Below, in pieces: positions 4,278 to 17,185 of a stretch of 28,187 bases of DNA (its first letter is position 1; each line of letters opens with the position of its first letter). The position numbers were made by a program, and so were the translations under genes. Under the pieces are notes generated by a model. The model had not been told where the DNA came from. It saw nothing but the letters and a program-made list of their open reading frames with translations, and did not search any database. Origin of the DNA: a virus. Where the stretch lies: positions 1 to 28,187 of the IMG/VR virus record IMGVR_UViG_3300027857_000051. One strand, written 5' to 3'.

Positions 4278-6107
4278 TTAGCTGAACGGCGTGGTGTCCG
4301 AGACCTGGAGACCCTGGAGCAGACCGCTGTACTGCGGCGCGTGGGCGACCATGGCGCCGTAGAGGAAGATCGAGTACCGGAAGGTGGCGTCGATGACCGG
4401 CCAGGCGATGGAGACGTAGTCCTGCACGCAGGTCATCTCCCAGGCGTTGGCCACGTTGGACCACGTCTGCGGCAGCTGGTAGGTCATCAGGGCCGCGGTA
4501 CCCTGGGTCAGCCACGGGTGGACGACCATCTTCAGAACCGAGCGGGTGATCGGGTTCTGGAACTCAGAGACGGCCGCACCGACGCGAACGCCAGGCACCT
4601 CGCTCTGGTCCAGGAAGAGGCGGTAGTTCGTGGCCGCACCCTGGCTGATGACGTCGTTGGAGAGGCGCATGATGTCGCCACCCTCACCGACGATCTCAGC
4701 CGGGTCAGCGCGGAACGCACCCGGAGAGTTGGAACCGGTGTTGCCGTCCCACAGCTGCTGCAGCGCGGTGTAGATCACGTTGTAGCTGAGGTGGGCACCG
4801 ACGGCACCGTTGTAGTAGCCGCCCTGCCACCCGGACGGGTAGATGCCGCCCGTGGCGGACTTGCCGGCCAGGGTCGGGATGATGCCCTCCATGCGGGTGT
4901 TCTTACCCGTGGAGGTGTCCGTGGTCGGCGGGGTCGCGCCGGAGCCGGGGAGCGAGCCCTGGACGGTGTACTTGACACCACCGACGCCGGTCGCAACGCG
5001 GAAGGCATTGGCCGTGGTTGGAGAGCCGTTGGTGCTGACGTACACGTTGTACGAGAGGGCACCGACGGATGGGCCGATGGTCAGGTCGACAACCTGGCCG
5101 GAGGAGGTGCTGATGGTGGAGCTCTGAACCGAGACGGTCTCACCGTAGTAGTTCGTCGCGGTGACGAAGACGGTGAAGTTGGTGTTCGCACCGACCGTGG
5201 TCTCGTTGGAGCCAGCGGTACGCGCGGTGAGCGACACGACGGTCGGCGCAGCCAGCGGGGTGCTGGTACCGGCGATCATCATGTACTCCTCGCCCAGCAT
5301 CATCTCCTGGAGAAGGATGAGGTTGGCGAGCGCGGAGATGTCCTCAAAGCCCTGACCAGCGAACTGAGCCAGCCAGCTCAGAGACTCAGTCAGACCGAAG
5401 AAGCGGTATGGAACGTTGAGCTGGACCTCGGTCTGAGAACCGGTGCCCGGGATGTTCAGCGGCCAGCTGGTGCTGGACAGGGTGCCGTTGTTCTGGACGA
5501 GCTCGCTGATCGCGATGTCCAGGACGGACTGGCCACCAGTCTGGGTGCCGGAGATGCCGGTGAACACGCGCTCGATGCGGCTGGTGCCCTGGCCGGCTGG
5601 ACGTGGCAGCTTGTTGCGGAACACCGTGTACATCGGGTAGATCAGGCGAGACGGCGCCAGGAGGTCGAACGGCACGAGGCCGCTGACGGTGCCGATGCCC
5701 AGGTTACCGGCGGTGAAGCTACGAGCCAGGTCAGGGGCGGCCGCACCACCGAAGACCTGAGAGATCTGCTCACCCAAGGTTGGCATGGACAGCGCGGCCT
5801 TGAGGTAGCCGAAGTTGTCCAGGAACGACGGGTTGAGGCTCTTGACCACGCTGGCACGGTCGTGGTAGCCGCGGTGGGTCTCCGTGCGGAGGTCCAGGGT
5901 GGCCTGGTGTGCCTTGGTGGTGATCTGCATCTGGTCAGTCAGCGGCGTGTTGCCGGTGCCGGCGTAGCCAGCGCCCTTGACCATGAAGGGCATCTTCGCG
6001 GAGAGCATGTCTCCGGAGCTGGTGTAGCGGTTCGCAGAGGCCGCAGCCTCCTTGAGTGGCGACTGGCTCGTGGTCGGCGCGACCTCAGAGCCGAGAATGT
6101 CAGCCAT
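4278..6107 (-). CDS. Major capsid protein, HK97-type, with inserted Ig-like domain (609 aa)
   Basis: The ATG at 6107 has a strong AAGGAG sequence upstream. The 609-residue length exceeds the usual 300-450 of HK97-fold capsid proteins, and an insertion explains the excess. About residues 285-395 form a beta-sandwich-like segment (SLTARTAGSNETTVGANTNF, YYGETVSVQSS, LSYNVYVSTNG, VKYTVQG), typical of Ig- or fibronectin-like domains displayed on capsids. The flanking sequence is helical and mixed, with an early helical region and the C-terminal VSIAWPVIDATFRYSIFLYGA as expected for the capsid core. Gene order (protease/scaffold upstream, decoration downstream) supports the call. There is no obvious separate delta-domain boundary visible by eye. 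Confidence 0.8.
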   Translation of the reverse strand: MADILGSEVAPTTSQSPLKEAAASANRYTSSGDMLSAKMPFMVKGAGYAGTGNTPLTDQMQITTKAHQATLDLRTETHRGYHDRASVVKSLNPSFLDNFGYLKAALSMPTLGEQISQVFGGAAAPDLARSFTAGNLGIGTVSGLVPFDLLAPSRLIYPMYTVFRNKLPRPAGQGTSRIERVFTGISGTQTGGQSVLDIAISELVQNNGTLSSTSWPLNIPGTGSQTEVQLNVPYRFFGLTESLSWLAQFAGQGFEDISALANLILLQEMMLGEEYMMIAGTSTPLAAPTVVSLTARTAGSNETTVGANTNFTVFVTATNYYGETVSVQSSTISTSSGQVVDLTIGPSVGALSYNVYVSTNGSPTTANAFRVATGVGGVKYTVQGSLPGSGATPPTTDTSTGKNTRMEGIIPTLAGKSATGGIYPSGWQGGYYNGAVGAHLSYNVIYTALQQLWDGNTGSNSPGAFRADPAEIVGEGGDIMRLSNDVISQGAATNYRLFLDQSEVPGVRVGAAVSEFQNPITRSVLKMVVHPWLTQGTAALMTYQLPQTWSNVANAWEMTCVQDYVSIAWPVIDATFRYSIFLYGAMVAHAPQYSGLLQGLQVSDTTPFS

Positions 6108-6143: not shown

Positions 6144-8993
6144 CTAGACCGTGTAACCGGTCATCTTCATGAGCTGGTTCCAGCAAGCCTCGCGCTCAGC
6201 GGGGTCCGAGCTGTTCCGGATCTGGTTCTGAAGGACACTGATCATCGCGAGCTTCTGCCGCTCCGCGGCCTCAGCAACGGTAGCAGCTCCCACCGGGAGG
6301 CTAGCCGTCTTGTTGATGGTGTCACTGGTGTTGTGCTGCTGTGCGGCGCCCTTCCAGGCGGCGACAGCTGGGTCAGGAAGGTCGCCCAGCTGGTTGACGA
6401 TCTCCTGAAGCTTGGAGGTGGTGGTGGTCTGCTCGTCCAGGCGCTTGCTCATCTCAGTGAGCTGGGCCTTGAGCTCCATGAGCGCGTCCACGGTGGCGTT
6501 CTTCTCAACCTGCGGCACCGCCGCAGCCTTCTGAAGCTGCTCACCGTTGACGAGCACGTCCTCGAGGAATGGAGCCAGACCAAGCATCTGACGAGCCTCG
6601 TTGAGGCTCTTCAGTGCCTTCTTGGCCTTCTTCGCAGCCATCTTCATCGTGTCCTCAACCGGCGTCTCAACGACGGCGGCCGTGGCCTCGACGGTCTCAG
6701 ACTTGAGAGCACCATGGACTGGAACCGGCACCGGTCGGCTGGCGGCGGCACCGTCCATGCCCATGTTCGGCTGAGTGGCTGGGCACAGGTCGGGGAAGGT
6801 GTTAGCGATGTGCTCGTGCATGGCCTGCATCGCAGACTTGGCCTTGTCACGCATGCCGGTCGTGTAGTACACCCTGGTCGGCTCACCGGCTGGCACCGGC
6901 GCAGAGATGACCTCACCCTTGTTGGCTGGTGACGGAGCGGCGTGACCATCCGTCAGTGGACCTCGAGTGAAGTCATTGGCGCAGATGTGGCTGGTCGTCA
7001 CTGCGTGAGTGTTCGGACCGTCATGGCCGGGGCTGTCAGCGGCGTGACCAGCTGTGATCGAGCCACGACGGAACTGCGTCGGGTTGATCTCCATCGGCGT
7101 TGGGAAGGTGCCGGGACCAACCTGAGCGTCACTGTAGGACTTGTGAGCCTCAGCGCGAAGCTCAAAGATCAGGCTTGGGTCCACACTCTTCAGCGTCTCA
7201 GCGTGCTGCCACATCTGAGTCGCCTGACCGGCCTCATCGAGTGGAGCGGTAGCCGCAGCCTTGAGAGCCGCCTGAGCCCAATAGTTGACGTCGAGATCCT
7301 CGATGCGAGCGCTCGGGTGAGACTTCGCGACGTCGTCCAGGCAGTAAGCTGGGCACAGCATGTCGTGAAGAGAACCGATGTCATAGCTGACACCGATGTT
7401 CTTGAGACGCTCAGCAGCCATCGCCTCGTGGTTCACGTTCTTCACCGAAGAGTCAGGAACCGTGGGAAGACCTGCGTCATGTTCGAACGCCTCGATCGCC
7501 ACACCGTCAGGCTCACGATGAGCTGGCAGAGGCTGGATGTTGGCAGCACCAGCTCCGACGACACCCTCACCCGGGTCACACTTCTCAACCTCGGTGTCAG
7601 CGCTCTTGGAGATCTTGAGCTGGGAGTCGGCCATAGGAAGGTATCCCTGGTTCTCAGTGCCGCACTTGGGGCAGAACTTCTCACCCTTGTCCAGTGGCTC
7701 ATTGCCACAGGTCAGGCAGGTGAACTTGTGGTTCTTCTTCATCGTGGAGGGCTTGGCACCAGCCAGGGACTTGCCACACTCCGGGCAGAAGCTGTGCTTC
7801 TTGTCGACGTTGGCGCCACAGCCAGCGCAGAGAACCTTGGCCTTCTTCTCTACGTCAGCGGTGTCACTCTTCGGTGCCATCGGCAGCTTGCGATTGCACT
7901 CAGTGCAACGACGAAGCTTGGAGTCAGCGTCATAGCCAGTCTTGCAGTTCGGGCACGTCTTGCCACCGGACTTGGTGGTGTCCGGCTTTGCCTCGGAATC
8001 CTCTGGCTTCTCATCCTCGCTGTCGTCGAACGCCTTCTTGGCGTCCTTCGGCTTGTCACCGTCCTCAACGTCCTCGTCAGACTCATCGGTGTCATCGTCT
8101 GGACTGACGTCACCCTTAGCGATCAGCTCCATGGCGAGATCAGCCTTCCAGGACTCCGGCAGCTCCGCCACGAACGACGGACCCTTGCGACGGGCGATGT
8201 TAGTGATGCGACGCTTCAACTCATCGCTGGAGTAGTTGTCAGCGCCAGCACGACCGATAGAGGAGGCAGCATCCGACACGTCACCAGGGGTGACGATGGG
8301 AAAGCTGCGGTCACGACCGGCGAAGTCAGAGGCTGGGATCTTGTCACGGTCCACACCGCCACCGACGTTCGGGTCCATCTGACGCTTCTCAGCTGCCTCG
8401 CGGTGCTCCAGGAGCTTGGCCAGGTCAGCGGGGCTGAAGGTGGAGGCACCCTTGGTCAGCGTCTCAGTGTCACCGAACATCTTGCCAACGTACTCAGCGT
8501 GGCCGTCCTCAGCGGACTTCACCAGCTGAATGCCGCAGTTCTTGTTGGCCGGCCTGTCCACCAGGCTGATCTCAACGATGATGCCATCAACGATGCGACC
8601 ACCACGAGCGACGTTGTCACGAACGATCTTCGGACGAGCGATCCCGACGGAGTAGGCGCGAAGAGCACCCTTCTCCACCAGTCGCTTGGCGGTCGGCTCG
8701 ATGACCAGGGACTTGACCCATGTCTCACCATCCGGACCGGTGTTGGCCTCGATGCCGACACCGGCGGGGTCACGCTGAGCGTTGTGCTGAACCCGCACGT
8801 TGCCGCCGGTGGCGAGCCAGTCCTGGATCGCCTTGCCAGAGAACGTCGGGTCGACGATCTGCTCGTCAGAGTCCACAGAGCCGTCGGTGGCCTTACCATA
8901 GACGATCAGGTCACCGTCGGGAGTGGTCTCAGTCTTCTCGATCGGGAAGCTGAGGTAAGTGAGCTCCCCGCTGCTGGTCATCGTGGCGGCCAC
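6144..8993 (-). CDS. Prohead protease fused to triple zinc ribbon and scaffold-like region (949 aa)
   Basis: Residues 1-160 look like an HK97-type (S78) prohead protease: the catalytic His is in NVRVQHN (H70), the Ser in LRAYSVGI (S115), and EISLVDRPAN closes the domain. About 205-290 resembles an XkdF-like segment with IPASDFAGRDRSFPI. An acidic stretch (about 297-340) follows, then three tandem zinc ribbons: C347/C350-C363/C366, C389/C392-C403/C406 and C426/C429-C441/C444. The last third has Ala-rich helical and coiled-coil segments (about 800-870) like a scaffold. Such fusions are expected to guide capsid assembly and then be cut up by the protease. A GTG start at 8993 is chosen for the AAGGAG 4 nt upstream. 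The zinc ribbons are the odd part. Confidence 0.8.
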   Translation of the reverse strand: MAATMTSSGELTYLSFPIEKTETTPDGDLIVYGKATDGSVDSDEQIVDPTFSGKAIQDWLATGGNVRVQHNAQRDPAGVGIEANTGPDGETWVKSLVIEPTAKRLVEKGALRAYSVGIARPKIVRDNVARGGRIVDGIIVEISLVDRPANKNCGIQLVKSAEDGHAEYVGKMFGDTETLTKGASTFSPADLAKLLEHREAAEKRQMDPNVGGGVDRDKIPASDFAGRDRSFPIVTPGDVSDAASSIGRAGADNYSSDELKRRITNIARRKGPSFVAELPESWKADLAMELIAKGDVSPDDDTDESDEDVEDGDKPKDAKKAFDDSEDEKPEDSEAKPDTTKSGGKTCPNCKTGYDADSKLRRCTECNRKLPMAPKSDTADVEKKAKVLCAGCGANVDKKHSFCPECGKSLAGAKPSTMKKNHKFTCLTCGNEPLDKGEKFCPKCGTENQGYLPMADSQLKISKSADTEVEKCDPGEGVVGAGAANIQPLPAHREPDGVAIEAFEHDAGLPTVPDSSVKNVNHEAMAAERLKNIGVSYDIGSLHDMLCPAYCLDDVAKSHPSARIEDLDVNYWAQAALKAAATAPLDEAGQATQMWQHAETLKSVDPSLIFELRAEAHKSYSDAQVGPGTFPTPMEINPTQFRRGSITAGHAADSPGHDGPNTHAVTTSHICANDFTRGPLTDGHAAPSPANKGEVISAPVPAGEPTRVYYTTGMRDKAKSAMQAMHEHIANTFPDLCPATQPNMGMDGAAASRPVPVPVHGALKSETVEATAAVVETPVEDTMKMAAKKAKKALKSLNEARQMLGLAPFLEDVLVNGEQLQKAAAVPQVEKNATVDALMELKAQLTEMSKRLDEQTTTTSKLQEIVNQLGDLPDPAVAAWKGAAQQHNTSDTINKTASLPVGAATVAEAAERQKLAMISVLQNQIRNSSDPAEREACWNQLMKMTGYTV

Positions 8994-9012
8994 ACAGCTC
9001 CTTGAGTTGGGG

Positions 9013-9216
9013 TCAGGCGGTGGCCGTGAGGGCCACTACTGGGTTGAGGTGAACGGGCACCGCCTTGACGGGGTTCCCGGTGGCATCGACGAACACCACG
9101 AAGAACTGCTCCACCTGAAACCCCACCGCCTGAACCGTGTCTGTGATGGGTGGCGGTGGGGTGGTGGCTGCGTCGGAGTAAAGAGGCGGCCAATACGTGA
9201 CGATGTAGGTGTTCAC
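9013..9216 (-). CDS. Small protein between portal and protease (67 aa)
   Basis: The GTG at 9216 overlaps the preceding TGA as GTGA. The 67-residue product begins MNTYIVTYWPPLYSD, then has a proline run and a beta-rich half (VGFQVEQFFVVFVDATGNPV) ending in Ala/Thr. The sequence looks coding and the tight coupling supports a real gene. It has no recognised domain. Confidence 0.6.
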   Translation of the reverse strand: MNTYIVTYWPPLYSDAATTPPPPITDTVQAVGFQVEQFFVVFVDATGNPVKAVPVHLNPVVALTATA

Positions 9217-9422
9217 GTAGTTTCCAGCTCCTGGGTCATCGGCCCACCGTTGAGCTTCAGCTTCGCCTCCCAGGTCCCGGTGATCGGGTTGGGGAGGACA
9301 TAGCCGTGATCAGTCATGACGGCGCCATACTTGACGATCGGGCGGGAGCCGTGGTGGCTGAGTGCGTTCAGCGCCCGCTCGATGGTGATGAGGAGGTCGT
9401 GCTCAACGTTGTCGGACATCAC
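9213..9422 (-). CDS. Small protein following the portal gene (69 aa)
   Basis: Translation starts at GTG 9422 (overlapping the portal stop as GTGA) or at the next codon, ATG 9419. A GGGG sequence is upstream. The 69-residue product has an N-terminal helix (VEHDLLITIERALNAL) and a beta segment (YGYVLPNPITGTWEAKLKL-like pattern). It is coupled to the portal upstream and to the 67-residue gene downstream. Function is unknown. Confidence 0.6.
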   Translation of the reverse strand: MMSDNVEHDLLITIERALNALSHHGSRPIVKYGAVMTDHGYVLPNPITGTWEAKLKLNGGPMTQELETT

Positions 9423-12154
9423 GTCATCCCCTTGTTCTCAGGATCATCACCCTGGTGGAACTGAGAGCTGTGTGTCTCTTCCCAGTCACGACTGTCGGTG
9501 AGGCCGAGATAAGCCGGAACTGGCAAGCAGAGCTTCTGATGTGCGAGGGTTCGGTGATGACCATCAACGACCTTGACGCGATCGTCATTCGGCATCTTCA
9601 CCATCACCGCCGGATGGATTGGCTTACCCGCCTTGATCTGGTCCACAAAGTGCTGAACACGCTCTGGCTGGTGACTGGCGGCCCAGGACTTGATGGAGTC
9701 CTCATCGATGCGATCCACTGGAATCTTTGTTGGGCCGGTCCAGGTGGCGTCCTTGACCCATGCGATCGCCTTTGGTGGGTAGTTCTTCAGAAGCTGGTTG
9801 TAGACTAGCTCTTCAGTGTCACCCTTGGAGGCGTTGCTCACGGTGCCAGGGTGGTTCAGGTTGGGCTCCCACCGAGGTGGGGTGGAGTCGACCTTGCCAC
9901 CGGATGGCACTCGTCCATCGTCATATGGTCGACCCACCGGGTCCTGATACTCAGTGCCATCCTCATCGTGAGGGGTTGGCACCCGGCCACCGCCACCAGC
10001 CGCTGAGTTGACCGGGACGAAGTCCTCCCAGTATATCTGGCCGTCCATGTTGACCAGACGTCGCTGAGAGACGACCTTCACCGCATCAGCTGGGTCAAGG
10101 CCCAGTGCGAGCTGGTGGCTGACCATCCCAAGTTCCAAGCGCCCGATGTGTCGGGTCTCCCAGGTGTCAAGCTGACGCCCCTTCTTGAGATGGCGTCCCA
10201 GGGCGTCCATCTCAGAGAGGACAGCCTTGGTCTTGTCAGCGCTGAGAAGAACTCGCCTGATCGTGGAGTCCTCCGCCTTGGCGGCTGGCTTCTTTGCGGT
10301 GGCACCCTGAGCGGCAGACTCACCTGGAGTGCTGGGCTTTGTCGTTGGCTTTGCCGCTCCAGCTGCAGGTTTGACGGCTGGCTTGGCGGCCGGTGCCCCT
10401 GGCTTGGTTGGCTGGGTACCGCCTGGCGAAGCGGGGGAAGGGGCTCCGCCAGGCGGCGTCATCGCGCCCTGCTGCTGAGCCGGTGCGGCTCCAGCGGGCA
10501 GTTCAAACTCCGGCCCCGCAGCGAGGCCGGTAGCGTGGGCCTGGACCGCCTGAGCGAGCGGGATCCAGCCGTTGGCTGGGGTAGCCCACCCTGGGTCAGA
10601 CGTCTCTGGCAGACCCCAAGGCTGCAGGTTCAGCTCCTGACGGGCCTCATCGATGGAGCGGAGCGAGGCGCCGACCTGAGCGATCAACATCTTGGTCTTG
10701 GTCTCCTCGTCCTCCTTCTCCTCCAGGCCCTCAAAGACGAACCGCATGTCACCCTGGCCACATACGCCCTGAAGGATGCGGTTCATGATGGTCGCCAGGA
10801 ACATGAGCGTCGGCTTGGTGGCCTTGCGTTCCTGGATACCCTGAGTGGCCTTGCCCATCTGGTGGGCGGCACCAGGAGTGACGGTGGTGGAAACCTTCGG
10901 CATGATGCCCAGCTCCATCGGCTGGACGTCGAACGCCATACACACCTGGCTCATGACGACCTCATCGAAGGCGTCAGCCAAGTCAGCCTGGCGCTGCGGG
11001 TGGACCTTGGAGTCAGCCGGCAGCACGATGATCTTGTGGTGGAACGCCGGATCACCAGCGATCGCATTGAGCGCGTCCTGAAGCTCACGGATCTGGTTCG
11101 GTGTCATGTTGACGTTGGCGCCACCCGGCGAGATGTAAACGGCCGGAACCGTACCCTCACGGAAGTAGTCCAGCTGGAAGCCCTGCTTCTGAAGGCCGGA
11201 CATCACCGGGACCAGGGCGCGCTCGATGGGCGGAAAGCCGTACGGTGTCCACCGACGGTTCACCATCGGCAGGTACAACAGCTGCTCAACGTCGAACTTG
11301 CCCATCTCCGAGCCACGCAGGTTGCCCATCTCGATGTCACGCTCATCGATCATCGTCATGATGTCACAGCGTGGAACACCGTACAGGTACTGCTGATAGG
11401 CGGGAGCTGGTGGGCGTGGGGTCGCACCGTGGAGGTCGAACAATGGTCGGATGGTCTGACCACTGATCAGGCTCAGACTGTCCAGGTCGGAGCCGAGAAG
11501 TCCCTTGCCGTGGCCCTTCAGCCACTTCGGCCGCATGAGGAGTGAGAGAGCGTCAAAGACGAGGACCTCCTCCATGACGGAGTCGATCCAGCTGTCCCAC
11601 GAGAAGTAGTCTGGGTCAGGGCGACGGAAGAAGCGGACGGCCTCAGCTCGCCTCTTCCCAAAGTCCTTCATCTGACCGTGGCTGTTACGCATCGACTTGG
11701 CGGCATCCACGGTGGGAAGGATGTCCCACTCAATGCCGCGGATCTCAGCCTTACGAAGCTGGATGGCGGCACGTGCCACTGAGTAAAGGTCAGCCAGGGT
11801 GCGCAGAGTGTTGAAGTCTGCGAGCTTGATGCCCTCGGTGCCAGGCTGACCGACCGGGAGGTTCCAGCCAACCTGGTACTCGTGGGTGCGAGGCTCAGCG
11901 AACTCAGAGCCCTCTGGGGGCGCGTCAACCGGAGTGGGAATGATCGGACTCAGTGGTCCGAACGCACCCTCGGTGAAGTCACGTGATGGGCGCGGCAGGT
12001 ACGACTGGTACGCCTGCGCCCAGCCAGCCCCACCGCTCTCAAGCTGTGCCTGAAGCGGTGAGACCTGGCCAGCATAGATGTTCTGTGGACCGGGAGTAGG
12101 CCTGGCGCCACCAGGAATGTTCCTGGCACCACTGATGATGGAACCACGTGGCAT
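9419..12154 (-). CDS. Portal protein with C-terminal ParB-like domain (911 aa)
   Basis: The portal forms the DNA entry ring of the head. Residues about 95-545 carry the portal region: RKAEIRGIEWDILPT, a helical stem region, GFPPIERALVPVMSGL, EGTVPAVYISPGG, and MAFDVQPMELGIM, as in DUF935/SPP1-like actinophage portals. A Pro/Ala/Lys-rich linker follows (about 575-645). The last 107 residues form a separate domain: IPVDRIDEDS, a helix, PIHPAVMVKM, and D864-G-H-H-R868 in VVDGHHRTLAH. This matches the ParB/Srx-like N-terminal fold with its DGHHR nucleotide/phosphate site. The ATG at 12154 follows GGGGGTGG. The fusion makes the protein much longer than typical portals (400-550). Confidence 0.85.
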   Translation of the reverse strand: MPRGSIISGARNIPGGARPTPGPQNIYAGQVSPLQAQLESGGAGWAQAYQSYLPRPSRDFTEGAFGPLSPIIPTPVDAPPEGSEFAEPRTHEYQVGWNLPVGQPGTEGIKLADFNTLRTLADLYSVARAAIQLRKAEIRGIEWDILPTVDAAKSMRNSHGQMKDFGKRRAEAVRFFRRPDPDYFSWDSWIDSVMEEVLVFDALSLLMRPKWLKGHGKGLLGSDLDSLSLISGQTIRPLFDLHGATPRPPAPAYQQYLYGVPRCDIMTMIDERDIEMGNLRGSEMGKFDVEQLLYLPMVNRRWTPYGFPPIERALVPVMSGLQKQGFQLDYFREGTVPAVYISPGGANVNMTPNQIRELQDALNAIAGDPAFHHKIIVLPADSKVHPQRQADLADAFDEVVMSQVCMAFDVQPMELGIMPKVSTTVTPGAAHQMGKATQGIQERKATKPTLMFLATIMNRILQGVCGQGDMRFVFEGLEEKEDEETKTKMLIAQVGASLRSIDEARQELNLQPWGLPETSDPGWATPANGWIPLAQAVQAHATGLAAGPEFELPAGAAPAQQQGAMTPPGGAPSPASPGGTQPTKPGAPAAKPAVKPAAGAAKPTTKPSTPGESAAQGATAKKPAAKAEDSTIRRVLLSADKTKAVLSEMDALGRHLKKGRQLDTWETRHIGRLELGMVSHQLALGLDPADAVKVVSQRRLVNMDGQIYWEDFVPVNSAAGGGGRVPTPHDEDGTEYQDPVGRPYDDGRVPSGGKVDSTPPRWEPNLNHPGTVSNASKGDTEELVYNQLLKNYPPKAIAWVKDATWTGPTKIPVDRIDEDSIKSWAASHQPERVQHFVDQIKAGKPIHPAVMVKMPNDDRVKVVDGHHRTLAHQKLCLPVPAYLGLTDSRDWEETHSSQFHQGDDPENKGMT

Positions 12155-12228: not shown

Positions 12229-14496
12229 TTAGATGTTCACGTTCGCGTTGGCACTGCGGTTGCGGTTGCGGTTGAACGCGCGAGCGTCAGCCTCGTCGGA
12301 AACGAAGTCAGCGAGGTTGATGTGCACGTTCTGGTTCACGCGCTCATCCTCATCACGACGACGACGGCCGCCACCACACGGGTCACAGCATGGGTCCTTC
12401 TTGCACGTGGCCTCGAGGACATCGATCTTGGTGCGGAGCTGCGTCTCCGTGGCCAGGCCGCGGGCGAAACGACGCTCAGCACCCTCCTCATCGATGTGAC
12501 GGATGAGAGCGCGAGTGGCGTCCTCATCGTCACGAGAGCGACGCTCAAAGCTACGCATCTCGTCCAGGTTGCGGTCGGACAGCGTGCGAATGAGATCGTG
12601 GGTACGGTCCTCACGGTCACGCAGGTAGAGACGAGTCTCCAGTTCACTCTTCTCAACCAGACCACGTGTGCGGTCACCCTCACGCCCAACCTCACAGCGA
12701 AGCTCAGCCAGACGCTCAGCGGTGCGACGGTCGTGGTCGGAGAGAGACTCCGACAGCTCCTCCAGGTTGTGGGTAACCTGGCGCTCGATCTGGTGCTCGA
12801 TGCGGCGCTCGGCCTGGTCGAGGTGGTGCGTGGACCGACGCTCGAAGTCGTCGGTGCCCTTGGTCAGACGGCGCTCGGTGCCGTCGACCTCCTTGGTCAG
12901 GCGACGCTCCGTGCTGTCCGCGTTGTGGGTCAGACGGCGCTCGGTGTCATCACCGTTCTTGGTGAGACGGCGCTCCGCGTCATCCGCGTTCTTGGTCTGA
13001 CGCAGCTCGGACTGGTAGATGTCGCGCTCGATGTTGCGCTGCACCATGTCGAGGTGGTCGACACCACGGCGCTCGGCCTCGCGCGCGAAGTCGCCCAGAC
13101 GGCGCTCGGTGTTGCAGACCTCGTCCCCGAGGTCGCCGAACGCCTCCGCGTTCTCCTCGCCGTAGTGGGCGAGACGGCCCTCGATGCGGCGCTCGGAGTT
13201 GGTCAGGTGGTCAGCCAGGCGCTCACGGCCCGACGCACCCTCACGACGACCGGCGTCGATGTCACGCTCGATACGACGCTCAGCGTCGGCGAGGTGTTCG
13301 TTGGTGTGGGCGAAGCCCTTCTCGCTCTCGCGACGGCCACCATCGACGTTGCCGTCCAGCCACTTCGCATCGCGCTCCTGGCCCTCGCGCAGGAAACGGG
13401 TGTCGGCACCCGCCTGCTGCGCGAGCCGCCACGCGTTCGCGTCCTGACCAGAGTGAAGCCACTTCGCGTTGCCGTTGACGGCCTCACCCAGCTCACCCAG
13501 GTCACGGCGAACCTCGCGACCCTCACCACGCACGTCAGAGCGAGTCTCACGGCCATCCTCACCGATGTGACGGTGAAGGTCGCGCTGACCGCGCTCCAGC
13601 CAACGAGCGTTGTCGTTGACACGGTCATCCGTCAGACGCTGACCACGCTCGGTCTCACGGAAACCCTTGTTGACGTCGCGATCAACGTCATCGATCTCAG
13701 AGTCGAGGTGGCGCACGCCGTGGCTGACGGCGTCCTCAACGTCATCAACCTCACGCCCAAGCCAGCGAGCGTTCGCGTTGACCTGGTCACCAACCCAACG
13801 ACCGTTGGCGTCCACGTTGCGGTCGGTCGCAGCCTGGCTACGAGCGGTGCGCTCGAAGCCGTCACCGACGTGGTGGTCCAGCTCGAAGATGTTGCGCGCG
13901 TTGAACTGCGCGTTGCGATTCGCCTCCGCGTCCAGGTACATGGTGTCCTGGTTGATCTGACGCGCGGTTCCGATGAAGCCCTCGGCGACCCGACCATCGG
14001 TGTGACGCTGACCGTTGGACAGGTGGTCGACGCCCTCGGTGACCAGATGGTCAGTGTGACGCTGGCCATTGGCCAGGTACTCCACGCCGTTGGAAATGCG
14101 AGAGTCGGTAAAACGCTGTCCGGTCAGGTCGGCGAGGGTACCGTCCTGGACCGCACGGTCAGTGACGCGCTGACCCGCCTCCAACGCGAGGGCCGCGTTG
14201 CCGACGTGGCGATCGACGCCCTGGATGGACATCAGAACGCGCTGGGTGTCATCGTCGTCATCCCAACAGGTTGGCATGGTGTCGGCCATATACTCCTTGC
14301 TTGAGGTGTTGCCGTCCATGTTTGGTGATGCACTGTCGCTTTCAGGCCCTTCCATAGCCTGAGGCGTCAGGTGAACGTCGCCGACTACGTGAATGTCAGC
14401 TGGCGTTCCTTCAAACTGAAAATCACCACTAACGTGGATCTCCCAGTTTGCTGAACCAGGAGTGACATCGGTGGCGCGAAACGTAGCGCCAGACAC
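12229..14496 (-). CDS. Long repeat-rich coiled-coil fibre protein (755 aa from GTG)
   Basis: This is a predicted elongated appendage. Residues 1-35 continue a tail-fibre module (TNTVSGATFRATDV, SANWEIHV). Then come several repeat systems: four 18-residue units starting GQR-x-TD (about 13960-14175), recurring NARWL/NAKWL units, and 11-residue units starting ERRLT (about 12790-13010), which fit long helical coiled coils. Near the end is a Cys cluster (CKKDPCCDPC) and a basic RRRRD stretch. The GTG at 14496 is the first listed start, yet the frame stays open and protein-like up to 14598. A second candidate, ATG at 14289, has a strong AAGGAG 4 nt upstream and would give 686 residues. It sits between the spike and portal genes. 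Confidence 0.65.
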   Translation of the reverse strand: MSGATFRATDVTPGSANWEIHVSGDFQFEGTPADIHVVGDVHLTPQAMEGPESDSASPNMDGNTSSKEYMADTMPTCWDDDDDTQRVLMSIQGVDRHVGNAALALEAGQRVTDRAVQDGTLADLTGQRFTDSRISNGVEYLANGQRHTDHLVTEGVDHLSNGQRHTDGRVAEGFIGTARQINQDTMYLDAEANRNAQFNARNIFELDHHVGDGFERTARSQAATDRNVDANGRWVGDQVNANARWLGREVDDVEDAVSHGVRHLDSEIDDVDRDVNKGFRETERGQRLTDDRVNDNARWLERGQRDLHRHIGEDGRETRSDVRGEGREVRRDLGELGEAVNGNAKWLHSGQDANAWRLAQQAGADTRFLREGQERDAKWLDGNVDGGRRESEKGFAHTNEHLADAERRIERDIDAGRREGASGRERLADHLTNSERRIEGRLAHYGEENAEAFGDLGDEVCNTERRLGDFAREAERRGVDHLDMVQRNIERDIYQSELRQTKNADDAERRLTKNGDDTERRLTHNADSTERRLTKEVDGTERRLTKGTDDFERRSTHHLDQAERRIEHQIERQVTHNLEELSESLSDHDRRTAERLAELRCEVGREGDRTRGLVEKSELETRLYLRDREDRTHDLIRTLSDRNLDEMRSFERRSRDDEDATRALIRHIDEEGAERRFARGLATETQLRTKIDVLEATCKKDPCCDPCGGGRRRRDEDERVNQNVHINLADFVSDEADARAFNRNRNRSANANVNI

Positions 14497-14598
14497 GGTG
14501 TTGGTCCACAGTGAACCGACACCGTACCCTTGGGTGCTGTCATTGTTGGGTCCTGGGTCGCTGCTGGCTACCAGGTTGTGTGGTGGCTGGCTCAGATA
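14497..14598 (-). other. In-frame upstream extension of the fibre frame carrying a fibre motif but no ATG/GTG/TTG start
   Basis: Upstream of GTG 14496 the same frame is open back to a TGA at 14601-14599. It encodes SSDPGPNNDSTQGYGVGSLW running into TNTVSG, the N-terminal module found in many phage fibre proteins (consensus-like NDD..GY.VGS.W..T). No ATG, GTG or TTG lies in this stretch. It overlaps the 3' end of the 109-residue gene in the +1 frame relative to that gene. Confidence 0.7.
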
Positions 14599-14869
14599 TC
14601 ACCTGTGTGTCTGAGTCATCCGGACGGTTTGAGAGCCACGGAGGTGGCGATGTTGGCCACCGTGTGGCGTCAATCTCGACCGGGTCGGAGCGGCTGAAGT
14701 GCCAGATCACCTGGCAGTACAACTCAAAGTTAGCCGCGAAAACTTCGAGCTGGTCTGTGGACTCCATCACCAACGATGGTGTAAACACCACCTCAGTCTT
14801 GGTGATGGGGTTGATCGCCGTCGTCAAGAGGATGCCCTTGCCGATAGCGAAGTTGCAGAAGAAGCGCAT
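14540..14869 (-). CDS. Small protein between spike and fibre, possible N-terminal part of a frameshifted fibre (109 aa)
   Basis: The ATG at 14869 comes right after the spike stop (TAG at 14873-14871), and the frame stops with TGA at 14542-14540. Residues 1-60 look like a small folded domain (NFAIGKGILLTTAINPITKT, ESTDQLEVFAANFELYCQVIWHF). The rest is a Pro/Ser/Gln-rich linker. Its last 20 codons overlap the fibre-like frame. It may be a stand-alone gene or the N-terminal part of a fibre joined by +1 frameshifting, for example at CCC-AGG near the end. No family recognised. Confidence 0.6.
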   Translation of the reverse strand: MRFFCNFAIGKGILLTTAINPITKTEVVFTPSLVMESTDQLEVFAANFELYCQVIWHFSRSDPVEIDATRWPTSPPPWLSNRPDDSDTQVISEPATTQPGSQQRPRTQQ

Positions 14870-14870
14870 G

Positions 14871-16901
14871 CTATGCCGTCTCGTACCAGCCCCACACGCT
14901 GTTGACACGCGCGGGGGTAACGGTCACCTTACTGTACTGACCGGTGAGAGCGACGAAGCTTGCTCCGTTGATCAGCTCACTGCCGTTTGCGACAACGTGC
15001 AACGTGTTACCAGTGCTGTCGATGCGAACGACCGTGATCACCTGAGGTGTCCAAGCGGCGCTCAGCAGGTTCACCGTGGTGTTACCGGTGGATGCGTCAA
15101 CCAGGAGGACGCGATCAATGACACCGACACTGTAGTTGGTCGTGCCATGCACCCACTGTGCTGGACTACCCTGTTGGCCGTTGATGATGTTGAGACCAGT
15201 GGGAGCTGTTGTGTTCACACCCGATGGACTGTACAAGCCAGTGAGTGTGATTGTGCCCAGAGCGGCGTTGAGACCGGTGCCGGACGTGCGGTCAGTGAAC
15301 GTCGGATCTGCGATCTCAGTGTCGATGTTTGCGAAGACCCACGGACCGATGCCGTTGGAACCAATGCCGATGATGTTGACGACGTTCGGACACGCCTCGA
15401 TGCTAGCCTGCTGGATGGCGATCGAGTGAGTAGAACCAACCGAGCCGAAGTAACTACCGACCGGGCAAAGACCAGACCAGCAGTACAGGATGCACAGACG
15501 ATCACAAACGAAGTGCTCCGTTGCGAAGATCCCGAACGTGTACCCACCGTGGCAGCTGACGTTCGCCGCTCGGTTGTTGTCGTTGTTGCCATTGGCTGGC
15601 ATGAGCAAGCCGATGGACAAGCCGTTACCGAGAAGAGCCGGGCTGCTGTAGCTGCCGAGCTGAACGGAACCAGTCGTGCCGTAGGCGAAGTTCTCCAAGT
15701 TGGCCTCAGCCAGTCCAGAGAAGTCAACGGCGGAGTAGGTGAACCCATTGACGCTGTGCGTGGTGAGAATCGACAGGTTCCGCAGGGTCACAAGCTTGTT
15801 GTCGAACACCGAGGTGCCAGTGCCGTAGCCGCCAGGCTGAGCCGGCCCACCGATCACACACGGGTTACCGTTGGTGTTGATCGAGTTGGTCTGGGCCGTG
15901 GAGTTTGCGAACACTCCGAAGCTGACCAGGGTGGAGCCGTTGACCTGCTGGTTCAGCTGCTGCCAGTGCTGAAGGCCGGCACCGTTGGTCACACCCTCAA
16001 TGGTGAGGATGACCTTGTTGGCGGAGGTGGCTACCGGCGCGCCCAGGGTGAGCTGGCTGTTGCCGAGGGTGGAGCCACCGGTGATCAGTGAGCCAGCGAC
16101 GCCGTAGAACCGACCAGTGCTGGTCGGAATCCTGACGACGGCGCTGCCGTGTGTCGTAGCGTAGCTGAGAGCGGCGTTGATCGCCGACTGGATCGCAGAG
16201 GTGTCATCAGTGGCCCACATGGCGACGGTAGCGCTGACGTTGCCACCGGAGGCGTTCGTTGCCGCCAGCGTCACCTGAGTAGACGACTGGAACGAGGCGA
16301 TCGTGGTTACCAAGGTGGTGACACCACTGGCACCAGCACCGAGGACCATGATGTGCTTGTTCACATCATTGGAGGTGAACAAGCCACTGGCAGAGGTCAG
16401 AACGGCGGAGCCGCTTGACATCGCAGCATCAGTGACGAACTCACCGTCACCCTTGGCTCCGTAAGCCGCGGTGGTGACGTCGAAGATCCAGGGGGTGGCC
16501 TGTGGCAGCTGGCTGACGTTGACGGCGTCTGTCGATGCGACACCGACTGCGAGATGAGTGATCTTGTGGCTGTTGTTCGACCAGTCACCTGCCGGTGGCT
16601 GATCAGTGGCAATCACGTCCAGAGTGCCGGTGTGCACAGTCGGGTTGGTCCCAGTGCCACCGATGACGATAGAGGTGTCACCAGCTGTGATCGAGGCGAC
16701 CCCAGAGGATCCGAATGGCTGGCCGGAACCCCAGGCGCCTGCCGTCTTCGGACCGTACATCACAAGGGCGGTAGGCGTGCTGTTGTCGATGTACCAGTCA
16801 CCATCGATGCCGAGGGTACTGGATGGGGCACCATGTCCGTTGTAGATGGTGTTGCCACGAGGACCACTGGTGCCACCAGATGAGATGACGACGACGCTCA
16901 C
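14871..16901 (-). CDS. Tailspike-like protein with pectate-lyase-type beta-helix (676 aa)
   Basis: The N-terminal 60 residues hold a fibre-type module (GDWYIDNSTPTALVMYGPKT). KITHLAVGVASTDAVNVSQLP (about 113-133) is a linker motif common in tail fibres. AYGAKGDGEFVTDAA (about 146-160) is the start motif of pectate-lyase-3-type right-handed beta-helices, followed by a long series of short beta turns to about residue 580. The C-terminal domain (STGNTTVNLLSA...VNSVWGWYETA) matches small terminal beta domains of phage spikes. It likely binds and may degrade a cell-surface polysaccharide; catalytic residues cannot be assigned by eye. The GTG start overlaps the upstream stop as GTGA. Confidence 0.75.
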   Translation of the reverse strand: MSVVVISSGGTSGPRGNTIYNGHGAPSSTLGIDGDWYIDNSTPTALVMYGPKTAGAWGSGQPFGSSGVASITAGDTSIVIGGTGTNPTVHTGTLDVIATDQPPAGDWSNNSHKITHLAVGVASTDAVNVSQLPQATPWIFDVTTAAYGAKGDGEFVTDAAMSSGSAVLTSASGLFTSNDVNKHIMVLGAGASGVTTLVTTIASFQSSTQVTLAATNASGGNVSATVAMWATDDTSAIQSAINAALSYATTHGSAVVRIPTSTGRFYGVAGSLITGGSTLGNSQLTLGAPVATSANKVILTIEGVTNGAGLQHWQQLNQQVNGSTLVSFGVFANSTAQTNSINTNGNPCVIGGPAQPGGYGTGTSVFDNKLVTLRNLSILTTHSVNGFTYSAVDFSGLAEANLENFAYGTTGSVQLGSYSSPALLGNGLSIGLLMPANGNNDNNRAANVSCHGGYTFGIFATEHFVCDRLCILYCWSGLCPVGSYFGSVGSTHSIAIQQASIEACPNVVNIIGIGSNGIGPWVFANIDTEIADPTFTDRTSGTGLNAALGTITLTGLYSPSGVNTTAPTGLNIINGQQGSPAQWVHGTTNYSVGVIDRVLLVDASTGNTTVNLLSAAWTPQVITVVRIDSTGNTLHVVANGSELINGASFVALTGQYSKVTVTPARVNSVWGWYETA

Positions 16902-17185
16902 GTCTCGTCCTCCTCATCGTCATAGACGTCATCTGGGAAGATCACGTTGTCTTCCCAGTCACCATTCGGCCAAAACTCCAGGACCAGGATGCTGCCATCT
17001 GGGTGCCGCTCGATGCGACGAATCCTCGGGCAGGGCTGCCAATACGCATCCACGTTGGCTACGTGAGAGTGGATGCCAGCACAGTAGACACAAGCTGAGC
17101 GGCCCTCAATCTCACCCTCGAAGATCTCCCTGGCCAGCTTCTTCTGATGGTCAGAGAGTGGCTCCATGTACTCAACGTGGCTCAC
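16898..17185 (-). CDS. Small acidic protein with Cys/His motif (95 aa)
   Basis: The frame (start 17185) overlaps the Ig-like gene upstream by 4 bp and the spike gene downstream by GTGA. Residues 1-30 form a helix (LSDHQKKLAREIFEGEIEG). C32-x2-C35, H39, H41 and C52 could bind a metal. The C-terminal 20 residues are very acidic (DDVYDDEEDET). It is translated within the appendage module, so a structural or assembly role is possible, but no family is recognised. Confidence 0.65.
   Translation of the reverse strand: MSHVEYMEPLSDHQKKLAREIFEGEIEGRSACVYCAGIHSHVANVDAYWQPCPRIRRIERHPDGSILVLEFWPNGDWEDNVIFPDDVYDDEEDET

Follow-up and report, generated by a model that had tools for sequence, protein, structure and literature searches.

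p109 and the fibre gene that follows it are probably two separate, neighbouring genes, with no frameshift between them and a junction that is one base shorter in this phage than in its relatives. The stretch that we analysed (the window) is a whole IMG/VR virus record of 28,187 bases, possibly part of a larger genome. Its minus strand carries genes for the small and large terminase subunits, g127, p95, a pectin-lyase-like fibre, p109, the coil or "fibre" gene, a portal, a capsid-maturation-like protein and the major capsid protein; the names of the last-listed genes derive partly from gene order and relatives. The window's relatives are uncultivated tailed phages as well; by terminase, the nearest isolates are Streptomyces phage TurkishDelight and Actinoplanes phage phiAsp2 (51-52% identity).

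Table 1. Positions of the features discussed, in window coordinates
Feature	Position	Strand	Remarks
p109	14540..14869	-	Small gene upstream of the fibre gene; ATG 14869; 109 codons
AGGTGAT	14598..14604	-	Resembles a ribosome-binding site; upstream of CTG 14595; L013 and L018 have AAGGGTGAT at the matching place
CTG	14593..14595	-	Displaced start codon, presumably that of the long form of the fibre; relatives have an ATG start here
N-terminal fibre module, PHNLVASSDPGPNNDSTQGYGVGSLWTNTVSGATF...	14440..14595	-	tblastn matches and PHROG 33012
CCC-AGG	14552..14557	-	Slip site of the initial annotation; inside the conserved module; judged a chance occurrence
Hydrophilic linker, module to coil	14290..14439	-	Codon score +0.217 per codon
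Shine-Dalgarno AAGGAG	14293..14298	-	3 nt before ATG 14289; duplex -8.4 kcal/mol
Coil protein	12229..14289	-	686 aa; long alpha-helical repeat, fibre-like; own start ATG 14289

The junction between p109 and the fibre gene

The features given in the initial annotation of this region are all as stated. The fibre frame is open on the minus strand from 14598, just after an in-frame TGA (14601-14599), to a stop ending at 12229, and it contains no ATG, GTG or TTG between that TGA and GTG 14496. The motif NNDSTQGYGVGSLW lies at 14547-14506 on the same strand, p109 has the limits first given for it, and its frame and that of the fibre differ by one base, the fibre being at +1. Absent from that account were two CTG codons in the fibre frame, at 14595 and 14574, the former being the sole codon resembling a start in the interval from the TGA to the point where homology begins. 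As fibre starts we rejected CTG 14574, which lacks a Shine-Dalgarno sequence (-1.9 kcal/mol), and GTG 14496, which also lacks one (-3.0 kcal/mol) and would cut the conserved module.

Comparison with the uncultivated tailed phages L013 (IMGVR_UViG_3300045391_004889) and L018 (IMGVR_UViG_3300017937_000001) provides intact copies of the junction. Both have the gene order p95, p109, then module and coil in one frame, and resemble the window in this order, in the module, in the type of Shine-Dalgarno sequence and in an internal ATG with a Shine-Dalgarno sequence before the coil. Unlike in the window, the module starts with ATG, p109 ends upstream of it in TAA, and one more base separates the Shine-Dalgarno sequence from the start: the TAA is followed by GGGTGATnnC (GGGTGATGAC or GGGTGATTGC) and then by the module's ATG, so that 7 nt lie between the TGA of the Shine-Dalgarno region and the start codon, compared with 6 nt in the window. 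In all three phages, 12 residues lead without gaps from the start codon (CTG 14595 in the window) to an invariant Asp-Pro, an equality that could be coincidence as the first 12 fibre residues are poorly conserved. CTG 14595 thus occupies the homologous start position with a properly spaced Shine-Dalgarno sequence. The duplex of AGGTGAT with the 16S 3′ end (-9.8 kcal/mol) is stronger than that at the window's capsid-gene start (-8.3 kcal/mol); of the CTGs inside the window's genes, 2.8% reach this strength, and some initiation at CTG 14595 is plausible.

The end of p109 also departs from that of its homologues, which occupy the same place in L003, L013, L014, L016, L018, L030 and L035 and have 88-106 codons. 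In the window, the gene runs 18-20 codons beyond its expected end. By a codon-usage score trained on the genes of the window itself, p109 is coding over 14869-14603 (+0.386 per codon), while its last ~20 codons (14602-14543) have no coding signal (-0.657 per codon) and the fibre frame there scores +0.253. Aligned by tblastn with L013 and L018, p109 matches as far as 14582, ~14 nt beyond the CTG, though identities are sparse in the tail. PHROG and Pfam searches with p109 and the coil protein yielded nothing useful.

These observations fit a model in which the fibre gene's start site would lie at 14604-14593. The window's shorter junction would place CTG where relatives have ATG and would make p109 miss its stop and run on into the fibre gene. 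In the sequence as written, the CTG would then yield little of the long form (module plus coil), and most of the product would be the short coil protein initiated at the conserved internal ATG 14289. The absence of the ATG and the run-on tail of p109 can thus both stem from a single base difference, and for this reason mutation or sequencing error is the best supported of the three options that the initial annotation had offered. The comparison indicates a lesion at the base level and falls short of proving it; a single-base sequencing error was among the findings that the initial annotation had named as speaking against its reading. We take the difference to be a deletion, either an assembly error or a real mutation. 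Indel errors are commonest in homopolymers, and the junction is not one. None of the other window genes that we compared is split between frames; the oddity is therefore local and the sequence generally good. A 23-base exact search of IMG/VR recovered no near-identical contig, so a deletion is not separable from a CTG start that evolved long ago.

Frameshifting and other readings of the start

As one of its options, the initial annotation had raised a programmed +1 frameshift, in which ribosomes leaving the p109 frame at CCC-AGG would continue in that of the fibre. Such frameshifting is known in phage tail genes, for example in Listeria phage PSA, and the window resembles these in having overlapping frames that need a +1 shift; the frames of p109 and fibre overlap in the required order. 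CCC-AGG is present in the overlap (14557-14552, minus strand), and CCC is among the more slippery +1 codons (PMC10885494). AGG is not a stop, and we found neither a stop nor an evident pause codon at the site; the RNA fold of the region is no better than that of shuffled sequences (z -0.29). The tail-gene likeness also ends with the relatives, as L013 and L018 have p109 and fibre as separate genes with a stop between them and a normal ATG just before the module, and a start of this kind is what the initial annotation had itself listed as evidence against frameshifting. Neither the frame relation nor the slip site is conserved: the offset from p109 to fibre is +1 in L013, L018, L014, L003 and L035, 0 in L016 and +2 in L030, and since it takes all three values no shift is conserved. 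Further, the zero frame has no coding signal in the approach to the slip site, as the score of the p109 tail indicates. The best point for the coding signal to pass from p109 to fibre lies between 14600 and 14577, and a switch at 14555 is 8.4-8.6 nats worse. Homology in the fibre frame, which the initial annotation had not described, begins upstream of CCC-AGG with PHNLVASSDP (14583-14554), and the slip site falls inside the conserved module. With gene structure in relatives, the start of homology and codon usage all opposing it, and no unusual RNA structure, we rejected the frameshift and consider it highly improbable.

Two further readings accept the sequence as correct or the module as silent. 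If the sequence is right and long established, the long fibre would be translated from CTG 14595 as a rare start, perhaps coupled to translation of p109. The homologous position, the strong Shine-Dalgarno sequence and the coding signal that the module retains speak for this, and the suggestion of a non-standard start in the initial annotation survives to the extent that this CTG is well placed and has a good ribosome-binding site. Against it, CUG is an extremely rare and weak start, making up 0.024% of bacterial starts and working at 0.86% of the efficiency of AUG in E. coli, or about 1% (PMC11497404). Both relatives with the same module (L013 and L018) use ATG, and the unusual run-on tail of p109 is left unexplained. 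We regard this reading as rather unlikely. Alternatively, the module may be untranslated in the window's virus, with only the coil protein made, from ATG 14289, and the upstream frame a recent relic. In its favour, ATG 14289 with its Shine-Dalgarno sequence corresponds to a conserved stand-alone start in L003, L014 and L016, and no strong start lies upstream of it. However, the extension is 102 codons long without a stop and still has in-frame codon usage, as would be expected if it had been translated until very recently; we consider the relic unlikely. The preferred reading, two separate genes with a one-base difference at their junction, removes a false frameshift candidate and illustrates that such a difference can imitate recoding.

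The N-terminal module and the internal coil start

The fibre-like motif that first drew attention to this frame is genuine. Its matches include, at 2e-6, a tail fibre of Pseudomonas phage SM1 and, at values down to 7e-13, several uncultivated relatives, and tblastn with the module found L013, L018, L024, L026, L036, L040 and SM1. The window at 14586-14437 aligns with L024 in the fibre frame. The module is coding by codon usage (+0.22 per codon in frame, -0.55 and -0.76 in the other frames) and matches PHROG 33012, a family of unknown function, at E 0.001; a search of solved structures with the N-terminal extension gave only a meaningless match (E 0.23). It is a domain reused in phage fibres (SM1, L024, L026, L036 and L040), usually near the N terminus, and by analogy it probably helps the fibre to attach or trimerise. 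The SM1 tail fibre (YP_009594429.1) carries the module as KHNLTATTDPTSADDASQGYSILSKWLNTTT; unlike in the window, it is internal, lying ~140 residues into the protein and preceded by a different N-terminal part, and SM1 has no coil homologue. In L024, a short fibre (4781-5428) has a head segment resembling the one in the window's pectin-lyase fibre (16704-16913), fused to the module of the window's coil gene (14437-14586). As it combines both segments, modules are shuffled between fibre genes.

Alignment-based scans found the coil gene in ten lineages, including the window, and an additional coil alignment search added no further ones. Over 570-784 aligned residues, homologues share 50-52% identity. 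Long and repetitive, the coil part is helix-like and has a weak apolipoprotein-like Pfam match below the cut-off. Its own start at ATG 14289, not recognised as such in the initial annotation, aligns with stand-alone starts in L003 (ATG) and in L014 and L016 (GTG), giving proteins that begin MAD...PVLPVV or VAD...PVLPVV, and in these three relatives it is the only start. In six lineages (the window, L010, L013, L018, L030 and L035), the coil carries in-frame N-terminal extensions that differ in length and content, and all six keep the internal ATG with a Shine-Dalgarno-like sequence. L010 and L035 carry AAGGAG, spaced as in the window, and L003 has the similar AAAGAG. L013 and L018 share the same 14 nt ahead of the internal ATG despite differences in the adjoining linker; linker counterparts in L010, L013 and L018 vary in sequence. 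With lineages combined, Shine-Dalgarno strength at the internal start exceeds that at codons of the same genes with p 0.0001, or 0.003 when the close pair L013 and L018 is counted once, a signal that comes mostly from these two and is modest in the other lineages.

Retention of the internal ATG and its Shine-Dalgarno sequence hints that both a long and a short form may be made; from sequence, two coil products are plausible, and both starts are presumably used in the relatives. Lambda C/Nu3 also yields long and short forms from an internal in-frame start, and it and the phi2638A endolysin share with the window a second Shine-Dalgarno sequence and start codon inside one open frame; the window differs from both in that the gene encodes a coil or fibre protein, the N-terminal extension varies by lineage and the two products are predicted only. 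In the literature on internal starts in tail fibres, we found only the endolysin case, in which such a start likewise gives long and short forms (PMC12203907). A more elaborate possibility is that, in this virus group, one frame yields the coil protein both as a long form, whose N-terminal module can be exchanged, and as a short form begun at the conserved internal start, and that in the window's virus a genuine CTG start sets the long form very low, rationing the attached, module-bearing copies. We consider this combination unlikely. A by-product of the analysis is a coil/fibre gene family, found only in uncultivated phages, in which varied N-terminal modules are fused in frame before a retained internal start, and which offers a testable case of two-form fibre proteins.

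Distribution of the coil gene and features of neighbouring genes

The full coil frame, the L013 coil and the L013 p109 all lacked a match among 50,697 phage records, and none was found for the coil and p95 in bacterial and archaeal genomes. The closest relatives by portal, L024 and L025 (88% identical to the window's), lack any match to p109 or the coil in the interval from p95 to the portal. p109 and the coil gene thus come and go as a cassette.

Several genes of these phages carry other unusual features. The terminase large subunit of L008 (8628-11255) has a ~335-residue intein-like insertion with LAGLIDADG homing-endonuclease matches (Pfam 1.3e-6), and the portal of L030 (7434-10250) has one of ~360 residues that starts with a Hint domain (Pfam 8.6e-8); the insertions are absent from the window's terminase and portal, respectively. 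The gene for the terminase large subunit of L009 is divided between two frames that overlap (8580-9098 and 8978-10249), reflecting a break or sequencing error in the contig. The portals of the window (9419-12154) and of L009 (12922-16458) have a long C-terminal extension in which a ParB-like VVDGHHR motif was recognised by eye, and the L009 portal also contains a NUDIX domain (Pfam 1e-9). Finally, the window's capsid-maturation-like protein (6144-8993) has double zinc-ribbon motifs in mid-protein (Pfam DZR 9.5e-10), which is unusual for such a protein.
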